Assembly: GCA_900320595.1 (NCBI GenBank)
Contig: ONSW01000009.1
Coordinates: 1 to 35,269, forward strand
Source: an uncultured Eubacteriales bacterium
Lineage (GTDB): Bacteria; Bacillota; Clostridia; Oscillospirales; Oscillospiraceae
Reading direction: 5' to 3'
DNA: 35,269 bases
In this document: positions 18,709 through 34,125 of the stretch, in pieces
How positions within the stretch are numbered: position 1 is the stretch's first letter
How the letters are laid out: each line of letters begins with the position of its first letter
Translations under genes and position numbers: made by a program
The notes under the pieces: model-generated
Told to the model about the DNA's origin: nothing
Seen by the model: the letters and a program-made list of their open reading frames with translations, nothing else
Databases searched by the model: none

Positions 18709-19057
18709 TGGTGGAGATGGGGAGAATCGAACTCCCGTCCGAAAGCGCTTCCTCAGGAACTTCTCCGGGCGCAGACGGTTATTTACATTCCCTTATCCGC
18801 GCGCAAGCCGTCATGCTCGCGGACTTGGTAGCTTCATGATGCATGGCACGCTCAAAGCTTTGCGTACTCACGGTCCCCACTCATCGACGCCTCTGTCCGG
18901 GCCGTGGGCCTCCCGGGAGAGACGCTCGCGCGATTACGCAGCGAGAAGAACAGTGTTGTCGTTGTTCTTTAATTTATAAGTTGCCCGTTTTATGGATGCC
19001 AGGCGCATCCGCCCGCTATTCCTGCCTCCGCACCCCCGTCGAAACCAGTACATCCCC
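18709..19057 (-). ncRNA. ssrA: Transfer-messenger RNA (tmRNA)
   Basis: RNA that, with SmpB, frees stalled ribosomes and tags the unfinished protein for proteolysis. On the minus strand it begins GGGGATG (19057-19051), pairs with CATCTCC (18719-18713), and ends in ACCA (18712-18709). The tRNA-like part shows GGTTTCGAC near the 5' end and GTTCGATTC in the T arm. The tag frame closes at TAA (18936-18934) after codons reading NNDNTVLLAA; if the resume codon is the GCA at 18984 the tag would be ATYKLKNNDNTVLLAA, longer than most. The hydrophobic LLAA end fits ClpXP recognition. smpB lies upstream on the same strand. No clear sigma-A promoter was seen directly upstream. Confidence 0.96.
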
Positions 19058-25961: not shown

Positions 25962-26497
25962 TCCTCTGGCAGCTTTTTGTCTCGTTTGCCAGGGTGGGCG
26001 TGCTCACCTTCGGCGGCGGCTATGCGATGATCCCCATGCTCGAGCGGGAGATCGTCGACCGCCGCGGCTGGGCGACAAGCGAAGAGCTGATGGACTATTA
26101 CGCCGTGGGTCAATGTACCCCCGGCGTAATTGCCGTTAATACGGCAACCTTCATCGGCTATAAAACAGCGGGGAACCTGGGCGGCATCGTGGCGACGCTC
26201 GGCGTTGTGTTCCCCTCGCTTCTCATTATCACTGTCATCGCCGGGATCATCCAGAACTTCTCCGACATCCCGGCCGTCAAAAGCGCCTTTGCCGGCATCC
26301 GCGTGTGCGTGTGCGTGCTGATCTTCAATTCCGTGGTCAAGCTGTGGAAGGGCGCGGTCAAGGACAAGGCAACGCTCGTCCTGTGCCTGCTGGTGTTCGG
26401 ACTGAGCGTGTTCTTCCCGATCTCGCCGATCGTATTCGTCGTGTTTTGCGCGGCGGCGGGCATCCTCTTCACCAGAATGGGGGTGCGCGGGAAATGA
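25958..26497 (+). CDS. Chromate transporter family, first half-protein
   Basis: Short-chain CHR-family membrane protein of 179 residues. It shows the CHR motif FGGGYAMIPMLEREIVDRRG near the N-terminus and GQCTPGVIAVNTATFIGYKT near residue 50, with about five hydrophobic segments. Short CHR proteins work as pairs of unequal, oppositely oriented halves, and the partner overlaps it by four bases (ATGA). Chromate export has been shown for some members, but in gut anaerobes the natural anion is uncertain. It overlaps pgcA by four bases and is the next-to-last gene of the murA run. Confidence 0.9.
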   Translation: MILWQLFVSFARVGVLTFGGGYAMIPMLEREIVDRRGWATSEELMDYYAVGQCTPGVIAVNTATFIGYKTAGNLGGIVATLGVVFPSLLIITVIAGIIQNFSDIPAVKSAFAGIRVCVCVLIFNSVVKLWKGAVKDKATLVLCLLVFGLSVFFPISPIVFVVFCAAAGILFTRMGVRGK

Positions 26498-27078
26498 AGC
26501 TTTTGCTCACGCTCTTCTTTGAATTTTTCAAGACCGGTCTTTTCGCCGTCGGCGGGGGAATGGCGACGCTGCCCTTCCTCTATGACATGTCCGCGCGGCA
26601 TCCCGACTGGTTCTCGACCGCACAGCTGGCGGACATGGTCGCCGTCTCGGAATCGACGCCCGGACCGATCGGGGTCAACATGGCCACCTACGTCGGCTTT
26701 GAGACCGGAGGGATCGCCGGCGCCGTGATCGCGACGCTTGGGCTCGTAACCCCTTCGATCATCGTGATTCTGATCGTTGCACGTATGCTGAAGGCCTTTC
26801 GCGGCAACAAGACGGTCGACGCCGTCTTTTACGGGCTGCGCCCCTGTTCGGTTGGCCTGATTGCGGCGGCGGGAATCCTTGTCGTCAAGATCGCGCTCTT
26901 CCGCTGGGATTACGTGGGCCCAAACGAGGACTGGTGGAGGTTCTTCTTCAATTGGAAAGCGCTGATCCTTGCCGCTGCGCTGCTCGTTCTCACGCGCTTT
27001 ATCAAGGCGACAAAAAAACTGCATCCGGTCATTTTTATCCTCGCCTCCGCCGCTGCCGGCGTGCTGTTCTCTTTCTGA
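26494..27078 (+). CDS. Chromate transporter family, second half-protein
   Basis: Partner CHR protein of 194 residues. Signature segments are FAVGGGMATLPFLYDMSARH near residue 17 and ESTPGPIGVNMATYVGFETG near residue 53, followed by several hydrophobic helices. The ATG at 26494 overlaps the stop of the first half-protein; a longer frame from 26305 lies wholly inside that gene and is not used. Together the two would form a complete transporter. The strong terminator at 27085-27117 ends the operon. Confidence 0.9.
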   Translation: MKLLLTLFFEFFKTGLFAVGGGMATLPFLYDMSARHPDWFSTAQLADMVAVSESTPGPIGVNMATYVGFETGGIAGAVIATLGLVTPSIIVILIVARMLKAFRGNKTVDAVFYGLRPCSVGLIAAAGILVVKIALFRWDYVGPNEDWWRFFFNWKALILAAALLVLTRFIKATKKLHPVIFILASAAAGVLFSF

Positions 27079-28894: not shown

Positions 28895-29632
28895 ATGCGG
28901 AATTTCAAGCTCACGCTCTGCTATGACGGCGGCCGTTACGACGGCTGGCAGCGGCAGGGCAACAGCGACAACACCATACAGGGCAAGCTCGAAGTGCTGC
29001 TGACGCGGCTGCTTTCCCAAAGCGTCGAGGTCGCGGGCTCCGGGCGGACGGACGCGGGCGTGCACGCACTGGGACAGGTCTGCTCATTTCGCGCCGAGAC
29101 GGAGCTTACCTGTGCCGAGCTGCTGCGCGAGATCCGCCGCTATCTGCCGGAGGATATCGGCGCGCTTTCGCTCGAGGAGGCCGAGCCGCGCTTTCATGCG
29201 CGCCTTAGCTGCCGGGAAAAGACCTATGTCTATCGGATCTGGAACAGCGAAGAGCCCAATGTGTTCGAGCGCCGCTGGATGGTTTCCGTTCCCGGAAGGC
29301 TTGATCTCGATGCGATGCGCACCGCGGCGGCACAGCTTGTCGGCGAGCATGATTTCACGACCTTCTGCGCCAATCGGCATATGAAAAAGACCGCGGTGAG
29401 GAATCTCAAGCGCATTGACATCGCCCGCAGCGGCGGCGAGATCCGCATTTCTCTTACCGGCGACGGCTTTTTGTACCACATGGTGCGCATCATCGTCGGC
29501 ACCCTGCTGGAGGTGGGCGAGGGAAAGCGGGAGGCCTCGGAAATCTCCGCCGCGCTCGAGGCCTGCGACAGAATGGAGGCCGGCCCCACGGCGCCCGCGC
29601 AGGGGCTTACGCTGTGGCAGGTGAAGTATTGA
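28895..29632 (+). CDS. truA: tRNA pseudouridine(38-40) synthase
   Basis: Makes pseudouridine at positions 38-40 of the anticodon arm of many tRNAs. The 245-residue product is full length, with YDGGRYDGWQRQGNSDNTIQ at the start, the catalytic Asp53 in GSGRTDAGVHALGQ, EKTYVYRIWN and the C-terminal GDGFLYHMVRIIVGTLLEVG. The ATG at 28895 follows GAAGGGG by eight bases. It has its own promoter and is followed by the structured RNA region rather than by another gene. Confidence 0.96.
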   Translation: MRNFKLTLCYDGGRYDGWQRQGNSDNTIQGKLEVLLTRLLSQSVEVAGSGRTDAGVHALGQVCSFRAETELTCAELLREIRRYLPEDIGALSLEEAEPRFHARLSCREKTYVYRIWNSEEPNVFERRWMVSVPGRLDLDAMRTAAAQLVGEHDFTTFCANRHMKKTAVRNLKRIDIARSGGEIRISLTGDGFLYHMVRIIVGTLLEVGEGKREASEISAALEACDRMEAGPTAPAQGLTLWQVKY

Positions 29633-29686
29633 TCGAAGCGGATAGAAAACAGGGGAAAAATCGTTAATTCTTGTATACTATTTTTA

Positions 29687-29715
29687 TTGACATCCCTGTC
29701 GAATGCTGTTAAAAT
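29687..29715 (+). promoter_or_regulatory. Strong promoter of the structured RNA / pot leader
   Basis: A perfect TTGACA (29687-29692), a 17-base spacer and TAAAAT (29710-29715). It is among the best promoters in the window and sits about 380 bases before potA. Expected start near 29722. Confidence 0.9.
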
Positions 29716-29719
29716 TTTT

Positions 29720-30074
29720 GCGTCTCAATTGGATAGCGGGTTTATCCGAAGCAAGATAACGACCGCCGAGCCCTTGAAAAAAGGGGGAGGCCAAGGCCAC
29801 ACGGACAGCCGGGTCGAATGCCGAGTATCCGCGGAAGGCGGCGGCAACTTCTGTTGCCTTATTGATTGAGTTAAAAGCTCAAGTTTTATAAGTTGGTTAC
29901 TATAAACCGGTATACACGCAAGCGGTATACAAAACTTGTGAAATGGTCAATAAGAGTAGTAAAAGGTATCTTTGCTTACAAGCTCTTCAAACCAATCGGG
30001 ACTGGAAAAGCCTTTCTTTGTGAAGGACAAAACAGTTTTTTCAAGTGACGTATGCCGGGCATACGTCATTTTTT
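29720..30074 (+). ncRNA. Unassigned structured RNA upstream of potA
   Basis: About 355 bases between a strong promoter and an intrinsic terminator, with no credible protein. Domain 1 is closed by CTCAAT (29724-29729) and ATTGAG (29865-29870) and contains hairpins GGATA/TATCC (29731-29747), CCCTT/AAGGG (29771-29785), GGCAAC/GTTGCC (29843-29858) and a long-range CCGCC/GGCGG pair (29763-29767 with 29837-29841). Domain 2 is closed by CAAGTTTT (29880-29887) and AAAACTTG (29931-29938) and contains two copies of GGTATAC. TTGGTT (29894-29899) could pair with AACCAA downstream. Hallmarks of RNase P, SRP, 6S, T-box, SAM, cobalamin, lysine and c-di-GMP RNAs were looked for and not found. It may be an independent ncRNA (a raiA-motif-like RNA is one idea to test) or a riboswitch-type leader of potABCD. 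Confidence 0.7.
30046..30074 (+). terminator. Intrinsic terminator between the structured RNA and potA
   Basis: TGACGTATG (30046-30054) pairs with CATACGTCA (30060-30068), followed by six T. It lies only 22 bases before the potA start codon, the position of a leader attenuator. Confidence 0.92.
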
Positions 30075-30095
30075 GTTTTCAGGGGGTTGCGGCCA

Positions 30096-31259
30096 ATGAA
30101 GAAGATCGTGGAGCTCAAGGGCGTTTCCAAGTCCTTTGACGGCGAACTGGTGCTGGATCATATTGATCTGGATATCTATGATAACGAGTTTTTAACGCTC
30201 CTCGGCCCTTCGGGCTGCGGCAAGACGACCACGCTGCGCATCATCGGCGGCTTTGAAACGGCCGACGAGGGCGAGGTCATCTTCATGGGCGAGGAGATCT
30301 CCTCCGTTCCGCCCCACAAGCGCAACGTCAACACGGTATTCCAGCGCTATGCGCTCTTCCCGCATCTGAACGTCTTTGAAAACGTCGCCTTCCCGCTGCG
30401 CGAGAAGAAGGTGCCGAAGGCCGAGATCGAGCAGCGCGTGAACGAAATGCTCGCGCTCGTGGCGCTCAAGGGCTTTGAAAAGCGCAGCGTGACCAGCCTA
30501 TCCGGCGGACAGCAGCAGCGCGTTGCGATCGCCCGCGCGCTGGTCGGACGGCCGAAGGTGCTGCTGCTCGACGAGCCGCTGGCCGCGCTCGACCTCAAGC
30601 TGCGCAAGGATATGCAGCAGGAACTGAAGAACATCCAGAAGGCGACCGGGATCACCTTTATCTTTGTCACGCACGACCAGGAGGAAGCGCTGAGCATGTC
30701 CGACACGGTCGTCGTCATGAGCGAGGGCCGCATCCAGCAGATCGGCACCCCGATCGATATTTATAACGAGCCGAAAAACGCCTTTGTGGCCGACTTCATC
30801 GGCGAGAGCAACATCGTCGACGGCATCATGCTGCGCGACCGGCGCGTCAGCTTTTCCGGCCACGTGTTCGACTGTGTGGACGAGGGCTTTGATCCCAAGG
30901 AGCCCGTGGACGTGGTCATCCGTCCCGAGGACGTCGACATCGTGCCCGAGGACAAGGGCATGCTGCGCGGCGTCGTGACCTCCGTCACCTTCCTCGGCGT
31001 CCATTATGAGATCATCGTCGATATCGACGGCTTCAAGTGGATGATCCAGACGACCGATTTTGTCGACGTGGACGAGCACATCGGCCTGTATATCGAGCCC
31101 GAGGCCATCCACATCATGAAAAAGAGCGAGTACTCCGGCATGTTCGGCGACTATTCCTCCTTCTCGATGGAGCTTGACGAGATTGGCGAGCTCAACGAGA
31201 TCGAGGAGCTGGGCGAGCTGACCGAGGAGCCCGCGAAGGAGGGCGAGAGCGAAGGATGA
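30096..31259 (+). CDS. potA: Spermidine/putrescine ABC transporter ATPase
   Basis: Cytoplasmic ATP-binding subunit of a polyamine importer. The 387-residue product has Walker [10 protein letters not shown] (37-45), the Q-loop in [14 protein letters not shown], the signature [15 protein letters not shown], Walker [13 protein letters not shown] and the switch His in [15 protein letters not shown]-type regulatory domain follows ([14 protein letters not shown]). The last 40 residues are strongly acidic with repeating [11 protein letters not shown] units, which is unusual for PotA. The ATG at 30096 follows AGGGGG by nine bases; a longer reading would start in the terminator. The stop overlaps potB (ATGA). 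Confidence 0.95.
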
Positions 31260-32131
31260 AGAGAAAAGCTTCCGGAAGCCTCGCGCTCGTCCAGCGCCTG
31301 GCGCTCGCGCCGTATTCGGCGTGGTCGGTGCTGTTCATCGTCGTGCCGCTGATCTTTGTGGCCTATTACGCCTTCACCGATCTGCAGTTTCATTTTACGA
31401 CCGAGAACATCACCCGCTTTTTCACCGCGACCTCCGTCGTCACCGACGAGAGCGGCACGCGTGAAGTGCATACCTATCTGCTGATCTTCATGCGCTCGCT
31501 GAAGCTGGCTGTGATCTCCACGGTGATCTGCCTCATCTTCGGCTATCCCTTTGCGTATCTGATCTCCAAGGCATCCGAGCGGACCCAGAGCATCCTCATC
31601 ACGCTCATCATGATCCCGATGTGGATGAACTTCCTGATCCGCACCTACGCCTGGATGACGATCCTGCAGGACACCGGCATCTTCAACGGCTTTCTGTCAC
31701 TGCTGGGGCTGGGGCGCATCCACATCATCGGCACCGAGAGCGCGGTCGTCATCGGCATGGTGTACGACTATTTCCCGTATATGATCCTGCCGATCTATTC
31801 GGTCATGGCCAAGATGGACGTCAAGCTCATCGAAGCCGCGCGCGATCTCGGCTGCAACGGCGCGGGCGTGCTGCGCCGCGTGATCTGGCCGCTGAGCCTG
31901 CCGGGCGTGATCTCCGGCGTGACGATGGTTCTCATCCCGTCGATCAGCACCTTCTATATCTCCCAGAAGCTCGGCAACGGCAAGTTCTATCTGATCGGCG
32001 ACGCGATCGAGGGCCAGTATACGGCCAACAACCTGCACTTTGCCGCGGCGATCGCCTTTATCCTGATGGTCATCCTGCTCTTCGGCATGGCCTTTATGCA
32101 GCGCTTTGCCAACAAGCGCGCGGCTGTCTGA
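31256..32131 (+). CDS. potB: Spermidine/putrescine ABC transporter permease
   Basis: Membrane subunit of the polyamine importer, 291 residues with six membrane segments. The permease (EAA) loop [20 protein letters not shown] is visible near residue 193, as is [12 protein letters not shown], characteristic of PotB. The start overlaps the potA stop by four bases. potC follows after 14 bases. An unusually long segment between the first two helices carries [16 protein letters not shown] and would lie outside the cell. Confidence 0.94.
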
Positions 32132-32145
32132 AAGGGGGAGAGACG

Positions 32146-32979
32146 ATGAAAACCGCTTCCCGTATCTATACCGCGCTCGTGATGATCTTCCTCTTCGCGC
32201 CCATCGCGATCCTGCTGGTCTTCTCCTTTAACGAATCGAAAAGCCTGTCCGTCTTCTCCGGCTTTTCCTTCCACTGGTACCGCGAGCTGTTCCGCGATTC
32301 CGAGACGCTCGGCGCCGTGCGCAATACGCTGGTGCTCGCCGTCTCCGCGGCGCTGATCTCCACGGTCATGGGCACGGCAGCCGCCGTCGGCATCCACAAG
32401 CTGAAAAACCGCTATCTGCGCGCCGCGATGGACACCGTGACCAATATCCCGATGATCAATCCCGATATCATCACCGGTATCTCGCTGATGCTGATGTTCG
32501 TGTTCGTCGGCCGGCTCTTCGGAGCGGCGACAAGTCTGAACTTCGCCACGATGCTGATCGCGCACATCACGTTCTGTCTGCCGTATGTGATCCTGCAGGT
32601 CCTGCCGAAGCTGCAGCAGATGGACAAGTCGCTGCCCGAGGCGGCGATGGATCTCGGCTGCACGCCGATGCGCGCCTTCCTGAAGGTCGAGATCCCCGAG
32701 ATCCTGCCCGGCATCGTGACCGGCTTGATCATGGCCTTTACGCTTTCGCTCGATGACTTCGTCATCAGTTATTTCACCTCCGGCAACGGCTTCCAGACGC
32801 TGCCGATCCGCATCTATAACATGACCAAGAAGACCGTCACGCCGAAAATGTACGCGCTCGCGACGATCATCTTCTTCGTGATCCTGTTCCTGCTGCTGCT
32901 TTCCAATCTCGTCGACGAGGAGACCGCCCAGGCCGTCCGTGCCGCGCGGGAGAAGAAAAACGCCCGGAAAAAGGGATAA
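32146..32979 (+). CDS. potC: Spermidine/putrescine ABC transporter permease
   Basis: Second membrane subunit, 277 residues with six membrane segments, FLFAPIAILLVFSFNESKS at the start, the EAA loop EAAMDLGCTPMRAFLKVEIP near residue 165 and SLDDFVISYFTSG, typical of PotC. The ATG at 32146 is preceded by AAAGGGGGAGA. The C-terminus is basic (REKKNARKKG). The potD gene follows after 33 bases with its own ribosome binding site. Confidence 0.95.
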   Translation: MKTASRIYTALVMIFLFAPIAILLVFSFNESKSLSVFSGFSFHWYRELFRDSETLGAVRNTLVLAVSAALISTVMGTAAAVGIHKLKNRYLRAAMDTVTNIPMINPDIITGISLMLMFVFVGRLFGAATSLNFATMLIAHITFCLPYVILQVLPKLQQMDKSLPEAAMDLGCTPMRAFLKVEIPEILPGIVTGLIMAFTLSLDDFVISYFTSGNGFQTLPIRIYNMTKKTVTPKMYALATIIFFVILFLLLLSNLVDEETAQAVRAAREKKNARKKG

Positions 32980-33012
32980 TAAGAGAAACTATCATTTAAG
33001 GAGGAACCCCCA

Positions 33013-34125
33013 ATGAAAAAGATCCTTACCGCCCTGCTTGCCGCCGTGATGCTGCTTTCGCTCTGCGCGCTTGCCGGCTGCGGCTCGTCCAAGACGCTGA
33101 CGCTCAACGTCTACAACTGGGGCGAATATATCTCCGACGGCTCCGAGGACTCTCTCGACACGATCAAGGCCTTCGAGTCCTGGTACGAGGAGACCTACGG
33201 CGAGAAGATCAAGGTCAACTACACGACCTATGCCAGCAACGAGGACATGTACGCCAAGCTCTCCTCCGGCGCCGTGAGCTATGACGTGATCATCCCGTCT
33301 GACTATATGATCGCGCGCATGAAGGACGAGGGCATGCTCCTTGAGCTGGACTTTGCCAACATCCCGAACTATCAGTACATCGACGAGAGCTTCCGCGGCC
33401 TGTACTATGACCCGGACGACACCTACACCGTGCCCTACACCTACGGCGTGGTCGGCGTGATCTATAACGCCAACGTGGTGGATGAGAACGACGTGGGCGA
33501 CTGGGATCTGATGTGGAACGACAAGTACGCGGGCGAGATCCTGCAGTTCAACAACTCCCGCGACGCCTTCGCCACCGCAATGTACAAGCTCGGCATCGAC
33601 GTGAACACCACTGACAAGGCCGAGTGGGACCGCGCCCTTGCAGAGCTCAAGACTCAGTCTCCGCTGGTCAAGAGCTATGTCATGGACGAGATCTACAACA
33701 TGATGGAGTCCGGCGAGGCTGCGATCGGCGCCTACTATGCGGGCGACTACTTCACGATGCTCGACGCCCAGGCCGACGGCGTTGACCTGCGGTTCTATTA
33801 TCCCGAGCGCACCAACTATTTCGTCGACGCGATGTGCATCCCGTCCTGCTGCCAGCACAAGGAGCTTGCGGAGATCTTCATCAACTACATGCTCTCCGAG
33901 GAGCCCGCGATCGCGAACGCCGAGTATATCTACTACGCCTCCCCGAACTCCCTCGTCTATGAGAGCGAGGAGTATCAGGAAGAGCTGGGCGAGGAGGCCA
34001 TGGAGATCCTCTATCCCGGCATCGAGAACTTCAGCGAGCTGTACAACGCTTATGCCTACCAGAATCTCGACAGCGAGATGCTCGACTATGTCAACACCCT
34101 CTGGGAGTCGCTGAAGATAGCGTAA
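33013..34125 (+). CDS. potD: Spermidine/putrescine-binding lipoprotein
   Basis: Extracellular solute-binding lipoprotein that hands polyamines to PotBC. The 370-residue product has a lipoprotein signal (MKKILTALLAAVMLLSLCAL) with lipobox LAGC, so the lipidated Cys is residue 23. The mature part shows LNVYNWGEYI, YDVIIPSDYMIARM and VPYTYGVVGVIYN, typical of the PotD/PotF group with Trp and acidic residues lining the polyamine site. The ATG at 33013 follows AAGGAGG. It closes the operon before a strong terminator. Confidence 0.95.
   Translation: MKKILTALLAAVMLLSLCALAGCGSSKTLTLNVYNWGEYISDGSEDSLDTIKAFESWYEETYGEKIKVNYTTYASNEDMYAKLSSGAVSYDVIIPSDYMIARMKDEGMLLELDFANIPNYQYIDESFRGLYYDPDDTYTVPYTYGVVGVIYNANVVDENDVGDWDLMWNDKYAGEILQFNNSRDAFATAMYKLGIDVNTTDKAEWDRALAELKTQSPLVKSYVMDEIYNMMESGEAAIGAYYAGDYFTMLDAQADGVDLRFYYPERTNYFVDAMCIPSCCQHKELAEIFINYMLSEEPAIANAEYIYYASPNSLVYESEEYQEELGEEAMEILYPGIENFSELYNAYAYQNLDSEMLDYVNTLWESLKIA

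Follow-up and report, generated by a model that had tools for sequence, protein, structure and literature searches.

Here, we present a long structured RNA encoded directly in front of the polyamine importer operon potABCD in a 35,269-nucleotide stretch of DNA, hereafter the window. From its sequence and that of its relatives, this RNA belongs to the RF02440 lineage as a full-length member and forms the 5' leader of the potABCD mRNA; it probably acts as a polyamine-responsive terminating OFF riboswitch with spermidine as the likeliest ligand. That it is a cis-regulatory leader is almost certain. With distinctly less assurance, sequence comparison makes us lean towards spermidine being the ligand of a class independent of the SAM-I-derived spermidine riboswitch. 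Such a class would apparently be the more widespread of the two; its aptamer would comprise about 240 nt and occur in several structural subtypes. It would control synthesis in polyamine-making Bacillota and the importer where synthesis is lacking, and the pneumococcal 'small RNA' F59 would be its terminated leader. RF02440 is already known as an orphan family; the RNA proves far larger than the Rfam model of this family, and almost all loci examined link it to polyamine supply.

Locus and family assignment

The RNA lies between a promoter and potA, and its locus has the following parts.

29687 to 29715, + strand: sigma-70-type promoter (TTGACA, 17 nt, TAAAAT) identified from the sequence, upstream of the RNA
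29722 to 30074, + strand: leader RNA of about 353 nt, with an aptamer-like domain and an expression platform
30096 to 31259, + strand: potA, which encodes the ATPase of a spermidine/putrescine ABC transporter and opens the controlled operon
31256 to 34125, + strand: rest of the potABCD operon, permeases and a PotD-like binding protein

The start of the leader was placed from the promoter and its end at the U-tract of the terminator. The hexamers TTGACA (29687-29692) and TAAAAT (29710-29715) match the consensus at 11 of 12 positions; the initial annotation had called this promoter perfect, which is true of the -35 hexamer and the 17-nt spacer but not of the -10 hexamer, which has one mismatch. 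Among 97 relatives, 57 have a promoter-like pair with at most one mismatch per hexamer 5' of the RNA, against a mean of 1.7 for mononucleotide-shuffled sequences. The 245-codon gene ending at 29632, 5' of the promoter, we take to be truA-like. The potA product passes the cut-offs of NF043075 (565.5 bits; cut-off 550) and TIGR01187 potA (369.9 bits; cut-off 355.6), and the PotD model matches the binding protein at 165.7 bits, under its cut-off of 582. Elsewhere in the window, the Rfam scan located a tmRNA (18709-19057, - strand) and a tRNA gene (1010-1082, - strand), and the membrane protein ORF at 26305-27078 presumably resembles a chromate-transporter family protein.

The RNA had initially been left unassigned and considered a new or rare class or a divergent raiA motif, with a confident Rfam hit named as the outcome that would speak against this. 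Such a hit was obtained: positions 29760-29824 match RF02440, SpF59_sRNA "(ldcC RNA)", at 56.6 bits against a gathering threshold of 37.2, over the full model (1-54) and as the one match in the whole genome. No match to raiA, OLE, ROOL or 6S was found up to E = 10 in the 551 bases at 29600-30150, and none to T-box or SAM-family RNAs at the gathering threshold or, in the leader, up to E = 10; the four other Rfam entries appearing in the leader up to E = 10 were all far below their own thresholds. A reading as raiA or another orphan large RNA, which the size and complexity of the RNA might invite, is thus of negligible probability.

The Rfam model comprises 54 positions, whereas the RNA conserved among relatives has about 240 nt, including P1 and P5-P11, plus the terminator; conservation continues beyond the Rfam core, through about 160 nt on its 3' side and as far as the P1 strand on its 5' side. 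RF02440 was matched in 33 of 150 genomes of the window's family, 18 of 398 of its phylum, 31 of 398 from the class of genome G483 and 8 of 395 from the order of genome G766, in samples that partly overlap and with stricter filters in the larger searches. The control genome of Lactococcus lactis also carries it. The distribution is therefore patchy yet widely scattered, reaching distant Bacillota. An exact-pattern scan of genomes gave at least 118 stretches, of which 106 were kept as the RNA; among the matches listed, the kept loci include Paenibacillus, Bacillus, Neobacillus, Acidaminococcus, Phascolarctobacterium, Blautia and Oscillospiraceae.

The 12 stretches that were dropped comprise one ending within the RNA (L047), three divergent forms (L088, L107, L148), seven that looked like chance matches (L050, L053, L062, L063, L091, L119, L163) and L051. 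The last (L051:1-600, - strand), from Holdemania massiliensis, may be a divergent member: a core-like TGACC...GGGTCA enclosing an inner hairpin precedes an ORF that resembles a lipoprotein gene. In L107:3296-3650, from a Spirochaetes MAG, the RNA takes a divergent form and stands in front of an operon with speD and a decarboxylase gene. Annotated phages gave no match, and two viral-contig hits were read as chance matches to the short pattern, having no conserved RNA 3' of the core. Plasmids gave one match, on a Paenibacillus megaplasmid without annotated genes at that place.

Conserved structure

The leader region folds at a minimum free energy of -117.4 kcal/mol, against -91.5 +/- 4.8 for shuffled sequences (z = -5.4; none of 100 shuffles as good), and both the high degree of structure and the several hairpins noted initially are present. 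The helices and the core, all on the + strand, are as follows.

29731 to 29747: P0, variable 5' hairpin GGATA...TATCC, with two-sided changes at all 6 pairs in relatives
29751 to 29758: 5' strand of P1, GCAAGATA, which closes the whole RNA (swap test; in minimum-energy fold)
29760 to 29824: conserved core matched by RF02440 (Rfam match)
29760-29764/29812-29816: P2, within the core
from 29765: P3 hairpin, within the core
29795-29797/29808-29810: P4, within the core
29843 to 29858: P5 hairpin GGCAAC...GTTGCC, with pairs ranking 6, 9 and 10
29859 to 29865: 5' strand of P6, TTATTGA
29866 to 29882: P7 hairpin TTGAG...CTCAA, with one pair ranking 7 of 27,730
29884 to 29894: 5' strand of P8, TTTTATAAGTT (in minimum-energy fold)
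29895 to 29908: P9 hairpin GGTTACTATAAACC, with one pair ranking 18 of 27,730
29910 to 29930: P10, variable hairpin GTATAC...GTATAC
29933 to 29943: 3' strand of P8, AACTTGTGAAA, also the proposed antiterminator strand
29947 to 29953: 3' strand of P6, TCAATAA
29953 to 29986: P11, AGAG.../...CTCT, with the 3' strand of P1 in its loop
29967 to 29975: 3' strand of P1, TATCTTTGC, with one bulged base (swap test; in minimum-energy fold)

Covariation was assessed on 97 non-redundant sequences (about 76 effective), obtained from 152 loci by way of 137 (15 without anchors or ends) and 112 (near-duplicates removed), with 15 more left out by length. All 27,730 column pairs were ranked by the APC-corrected G statistic. 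Because RNAalifold gave a poor consensus on the MAFFT alignment, the helices were drawn up by hand on the basis of conserved strings, and counting followed. Selection and counting thus used the same data, with the rank among all 27,730 pairs and swap tests as safeguards.

The seven strongest column pairs all lie within proposed helices (P3, P2, P5 and P7), with P2 and P3 holding ranks 1-5 and the outer pair of P2 occurring as UA, CG, GC and UG. Ranks 12-17 are pairs outside or beside the proposed helices, so background correlation reaches that level and the ranks of P9 and of P1 (21 and 32) prove little on their own. P7 shows 17 two-sided cells and 95% of cells paired. The initial annotation had staked its reading on conservation and covariation among relatives, and both are found, in an RNA present in 18 of the 398 phylum genomes.

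In the window, the RNA closed by P1 measures 225 nt. In an alignment-free partner swap over 112 loci, cognate strands paired at -10.06 kcal/mol against -7.12 +/- 0.21 for permuted ones, with none of 5000 permutations as low; a few loci with misplaced anchors (e.g. L048, L056, L059) were left in, and the relatedness of the sequences inflates tests of this kind. The effect size and the variety of partner sequences argue for P1 as a real helix. On the alignment, its outer pairs are formed in 87-94% of rows and its inner ones, from the sixth onward, in 58-64%. The 3' strand of P1 lies inside the loop of P11, and the two helices therefore form a pseudoknot or exclude each other.

P6, P8 and P11 hardly vary among the 97 sequences and thus rest on near-universal pairing; their few or absent two-sided changes count against our reading. 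P6 has 98% of cells paired and one two-sided cell, P8 as 11 pairs has 1012 of 1059 cells (96%) paired and six two-sided, and P11 is nearly invariant with no two-sided change. Divergent loci show P6 as UGUUGA/UCGACA (L148) or UGUUG/CAACA (L194, L198, L199), a form not kept in L107, and replace GAGU/ACUC of P11 by GAGC/GCUC (L148, L198, L199), which was not seen in L194. P0 is paired in 59-81% of sequences at each pair, with weak ranks, and is absent from the minimum-energy fold of the window; P10 is paired in 53-82% of relatives at each pair and is poorly aligned.

A further helix, P4b (core CGG with GCCG), was rejected, one of its pairs being never standard and the other invariant. Alignment columns 67 and 76 form C-A, or U-G in some loci, and are possibly a non-standard pair. 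In one subtype (L148:3630-3960, L088 and L198:1440-1760) TAGCGAT...ATCG replaces the P5 hairpin, and in L148 and L198 GAGC/GGCTC stands instead of P11; this subtype probably keeps the same role, since speD comes next in L148. In L160 and L124, where the RNA precedes potA, extra domains of roughly 125-140 nt are inserted in the P9/P10 region.

The conserved long-range helices are P1, P6 and P8, and the two long-range stems proposed initially do not belong to the conserved fold. Neither stem is present in the minimum-energy fold of the window, which does contain P1, P2, P6 and P8. CTCAAT/ATTGAG does occur in the window, overlapping P6 and P7. It is paired in 96 of 100 cells, with no two-sided change, in the 17 relatives sharing the TCTCAATTGG string. 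When all 97 relatives are taken together, 172 of 213 scorable cells are paired and one shows a two-sided change. The stem may be peculiar to the TCTCAATTGG group. The other stem, CAAGTTTT/AAAACTTG, uses the 3' strand of P8 in a different register. It is paired in 79% of consensus-column cells, against 96% for the 11-bp P8, and has an A-C mismatch mid-stem in 58 relatives. On window-anchored columns the two are closer (72% against 79% for the inner five pairs of P8), and two-sided changes are scarce in both (3 and 6 cells, respectively).

Terminator and proposed antiterminator

Two further elements on the + strand make up the 3' end of the leader.

30038 to 30047: segment TTTTCAAGTG in the left arm of the terminator, the proposed pairing partner of 29933-29943
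30043 to 30074: intrinsic terminator hairpin (stem 30043-30071) and U-tract

The terminator just before potA, already recognised in the initial annotation, was detected by script in 95 of the 97 relatives. The best complement of its left arm within the RNA is the 3' strand of P8, AACUUGUGA, at a mean of -6.81 kcal/mol; all windows average -3.01, and shuffled arms give -3.07 +/- 0.17. The pairing reaches -5 in 74 of 95 loci, and the next best separate complement is the side of P10 just 5' of this strand (-5.5). Own-partner pairing modestly beats permuted pairing (-8.62 against -8.06 +/- 0.13; 0 of 5000, n = 93), and UACAG or UACAAG is found in the arm in 5 of 15 loci with ACUUGUA against 2 of 76 with ACUUGUG. 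In the window itself the antiterminator pairing is modest, at -6.5 kcal/mol against -16.2 for the terminator, and it would need to displace the 11-bp P8, which counts against the proposed switch.

Terminator and antiterminator are, judged by sequence alone, mutually exclusive, in the usual geometry of a terminating OFF switch. Direct ligand binding, the identity of the ligand and the direction of the response we infer as follows. With spermidine plentiful, P8 (UUUUAUAAGUU with AACUUGUGAAA) would be held and its 3' strand occupied, so that the terminator at 30043-30074 would form and potABCD would not be transcribed. With spermidine scarce, the 3' strand of P8 would become available for pairing with the terminator's left arm (CAAGUG); this would keep the terminator from forming, and the importer would be made.

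Downstream genes and the proposed ligand

Gene families were set by BLAST against four representatives, themselves checked with NCBIfam and Pfam; seven of the 106 kept loci had no ORF before the locus end, leaving 99. Among the matches listed, the next gene belongs to one of four polyamine families in 98 of the 99, with PotA first in 29, OKR decarboxylase in 28, SpeD in 27 and carboxyspermidine dehydrogenase in 14, at lowest identities of 54%, 67%, 68% and 92%, respectively. In the remaining locus, a nitrogen regulatory P-II gene (Pfam; L126:1557-1952, - strand) stands between the RNA and potA. The same families take first place in 45 of 46 loci of a second set (SpeD 20, PotA 12, dehydrogenase 7, decarboxylase 6, other 1, namely L020) and in 29 of 33 loci of a third set from more distant genomes (dehydrogenase 24, decarboxylase 5, other 4, namely L194, L197, L198 and L199); some loci of the 99 come from the same organisms as loci in the other sets. 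L197 matched none of the four representatives. As expected of a riboswitch, a conserved and covarying RNA thus leads functionally related genes. The name RF02440 'ldcC RNA' implies a decarboxylase, which follows the RNA in 28 of the 99 loci among the matches listed, whereas the gene controlled in the window is potA.

With the carboxynorspermidine synthase model the dehydrogenase scores 412-418 bits, short of the curated cut-off of 800, and the name carboxyspermidine dehydrogenase is therefore our own reading; the cut-off for its partner nspC is cleared (489.6 against 409.05). In L020, L194, L198 and L199 the RNA precedes the gene of an M28 peptidase, a secreted protein or lipoprotein that carries a PA domain; it was called by Pfam in L194 and L198 and by likeness to L198 in L199. 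The L020 and L194 proteins are 37% identical, the L020 genome belonging to the family of the window and that of L194 sharing only its phylum, and the RNA of L194, L198 and L199 is of a divergent subtype. An M28 peptidase has no obvious polyamine role, which counts against our reading, and a link between it and polyamines is possible.

The speD and dehydrogenase routes share spermidine as their product, and PotABCD imports spermidine. Polyamine synthesis genes were searched for in 32 genomes of the family, comprising 12 with the RNA before potA (RNA-potA genomes), 18 with it before synthesis genes, G022 (M28) and G109 (no RNA found); two of the 33 family genomes with the RNA, G097 and G037, were left out, and in G076 the gene after the RNA was read from coordinates only. 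In none of the 12 RNA-potA genomes, four of them assemblies only 65-85% complete, were SpeD of the E. coli or the B. subtilis type, the dehydrogenase or SpeE above cut-off found. A distant SpeE-like hit below cut-off was seen in 5 of the 12, and an OKR-family protein above the Pfam cut-off in 4 of the 12; the window's own genome, one of the 12, gave no OKR hit. Of the 18 genomes in which the RNA stands before synthesis genes, 14 have SpeD and the remaining 4 a dehydrogenase hit, a result partly built in because speD often directly follows the RNA. The absence in the RNA-potA genomes is thus the informative half of the comparison, and by this pattern the RNA would guard synthesis where it is present and import where no synthesis was found. 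The genomes compared are related and the gene losses are not a set of independent events; this shared descent weakens the ligand argument, not its direction.

Alternative explanations

Sensing of another compound of the pathway (putrescine, agmatine, cadaverine or decarboxylated SAM) seems fairly unlikely to us. Decarboxylase and agmatinase genes do occur in the controlled operons, and importers of the PotABCD type can take up putrescine too, but no SpeD was found in the potA-linked genomes, which makes decarboxylated SAM an unlikely ligand there. The dehydrogenase-nspC operons (e.g. L071, Paenibacillus) consume putrescine and make spermidine, so that an OFF switch fits spermidine better. It is rather improbable that the leader is a polyamine-related attenuator read by a protein or the ribosome, through a polyamine-binding regulator or through arrest on an upstream ORF as in the speF and odc1 leaders. 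The speF leader encodes an arrest peptide, and polyamines act on ribosomes. The odc1 motif is a known case of control of polyamine genes by an upstream ORF, according to the available part of its description (PMC8632094). However, no upstream frame is common to the relatives of the present RNA: an SD-led ORF of at least 8 codons begins inside the RNA in 22 of the 97, and no start position recurs more than twice, in line with the initial finding of no credible reading frame. Moreover, an RNA whose bases are close to invariant over about 240 nt and whose long-range helices are nested resembles an aptamer more than it does a protein site.

The pneumococcal RNA known as F59, SN20, srn235 or Spd_sr49 gives RF02440 its name and lies, in the sources as far as available, directly upstream of SP0916 on the same strand. 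F59 (869510-869591) is placed between SP0915 and SP0916 in the accessible part of PMC3395615, and that of PMC2887815 gives SN20 as 869478-869791, on the strand of SP0916, with a transcript of 318 nt on tiling arrays and a guess at an FMN switch from a shared motif. The mapped length of about 320 nt resembles that of the terminated window leader, a likeness by description and not by sequence. In contrast to our leader reading, the RNA is catalogued as a putative sRNA, still so in the portion available of a 2025 study (PMC12323649), and the excerpted table of a review lists F59 under 'Lung' (PMC4387999). That it acts in trans and stands before these genes by chance is nevertheless very improbable. 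It was named and studied as an sRNA and has a discrete short transcript, but a terminator before the start codon also accounts for such a transcript. The RNA stands on the same strand directly before four polyamine gene families in distant lineages, and independence from the neighbouring gene, as expected of a trans-acting sRNA, is not seen (98 of the 99 loci precede polyamine genes among the matches listed).

Expression data from the pneumococcus, taken from the accessible parts of the cited papers, point in different directions. SP0916 is arginine decarboxylase (PMC7990898). On deletion of potABCD, with reduced polyamine levels, SP_0916 rose 16.9-fold and SP_0918 14.4-fold by qRT-PCR, but neither was differentially expressed in the RNA-seq of the same study (PMC8540371). 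DFMO lowered SPD0813 and SPD0815, of spermidine/putrescine synthesis, 1.5-fold, and deletion of SP_0916 lowered polyamine-synthesis proteins (PMC10887117); the effect of DFMO is the opposite of simple derepression and speaks against a simple OFF switch.

With these alternatives weighed, an OFF-type polyamine-sensing riboswitch remains, on sequence evidence, the likely reading, and the initial suggestion of a riboswitch leader is strongly supported by the covarying structure, the terminator, the antiterminator complementarity and the coherent downstream genes.

Relation to known RNAs and significance

The SAM-I-derived spermidine riboswitch, as described in the available part of Salvail et al. 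2023 (PMC10853860), is likewise a terminating OFF switch before polyamine genes, including ldcC; it has the SAM-I fold, whereas the window leader gave no SAM-family match at the threshold or at E = 10. The odc1 and potE motifs (PMC8632094) are also candidate leaders of polyamine-related genes; in the portion available, odc1 is described with an upstream ORF, unlike the present RNA with no shared one, and potE is called a weak candidate poorly supported by covariation. No description of the present RNA as a polyamine riboswitch was found in the open-licence literature searched. An 'ldcC RNA motif' was reportedly named by Weinberg et al. 2017 (NAR, 224 candidate RNAs), and that paper may already report some of the association with these genes.

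Polyamine riboswitches have long been sought, and the only validated class found in the literature searched, as far as its text was available, is the SAM-I variant, called rare by its authors. If our reading is true, a second class of unrelated architecture would open the sensing of polyamines by RNA to direct tests, a catalogued pneumococcal 'sRNA' would become a cis-regulator of polyamine supply, and the RNA could yield a marker for polyamine-dependent bacteria.
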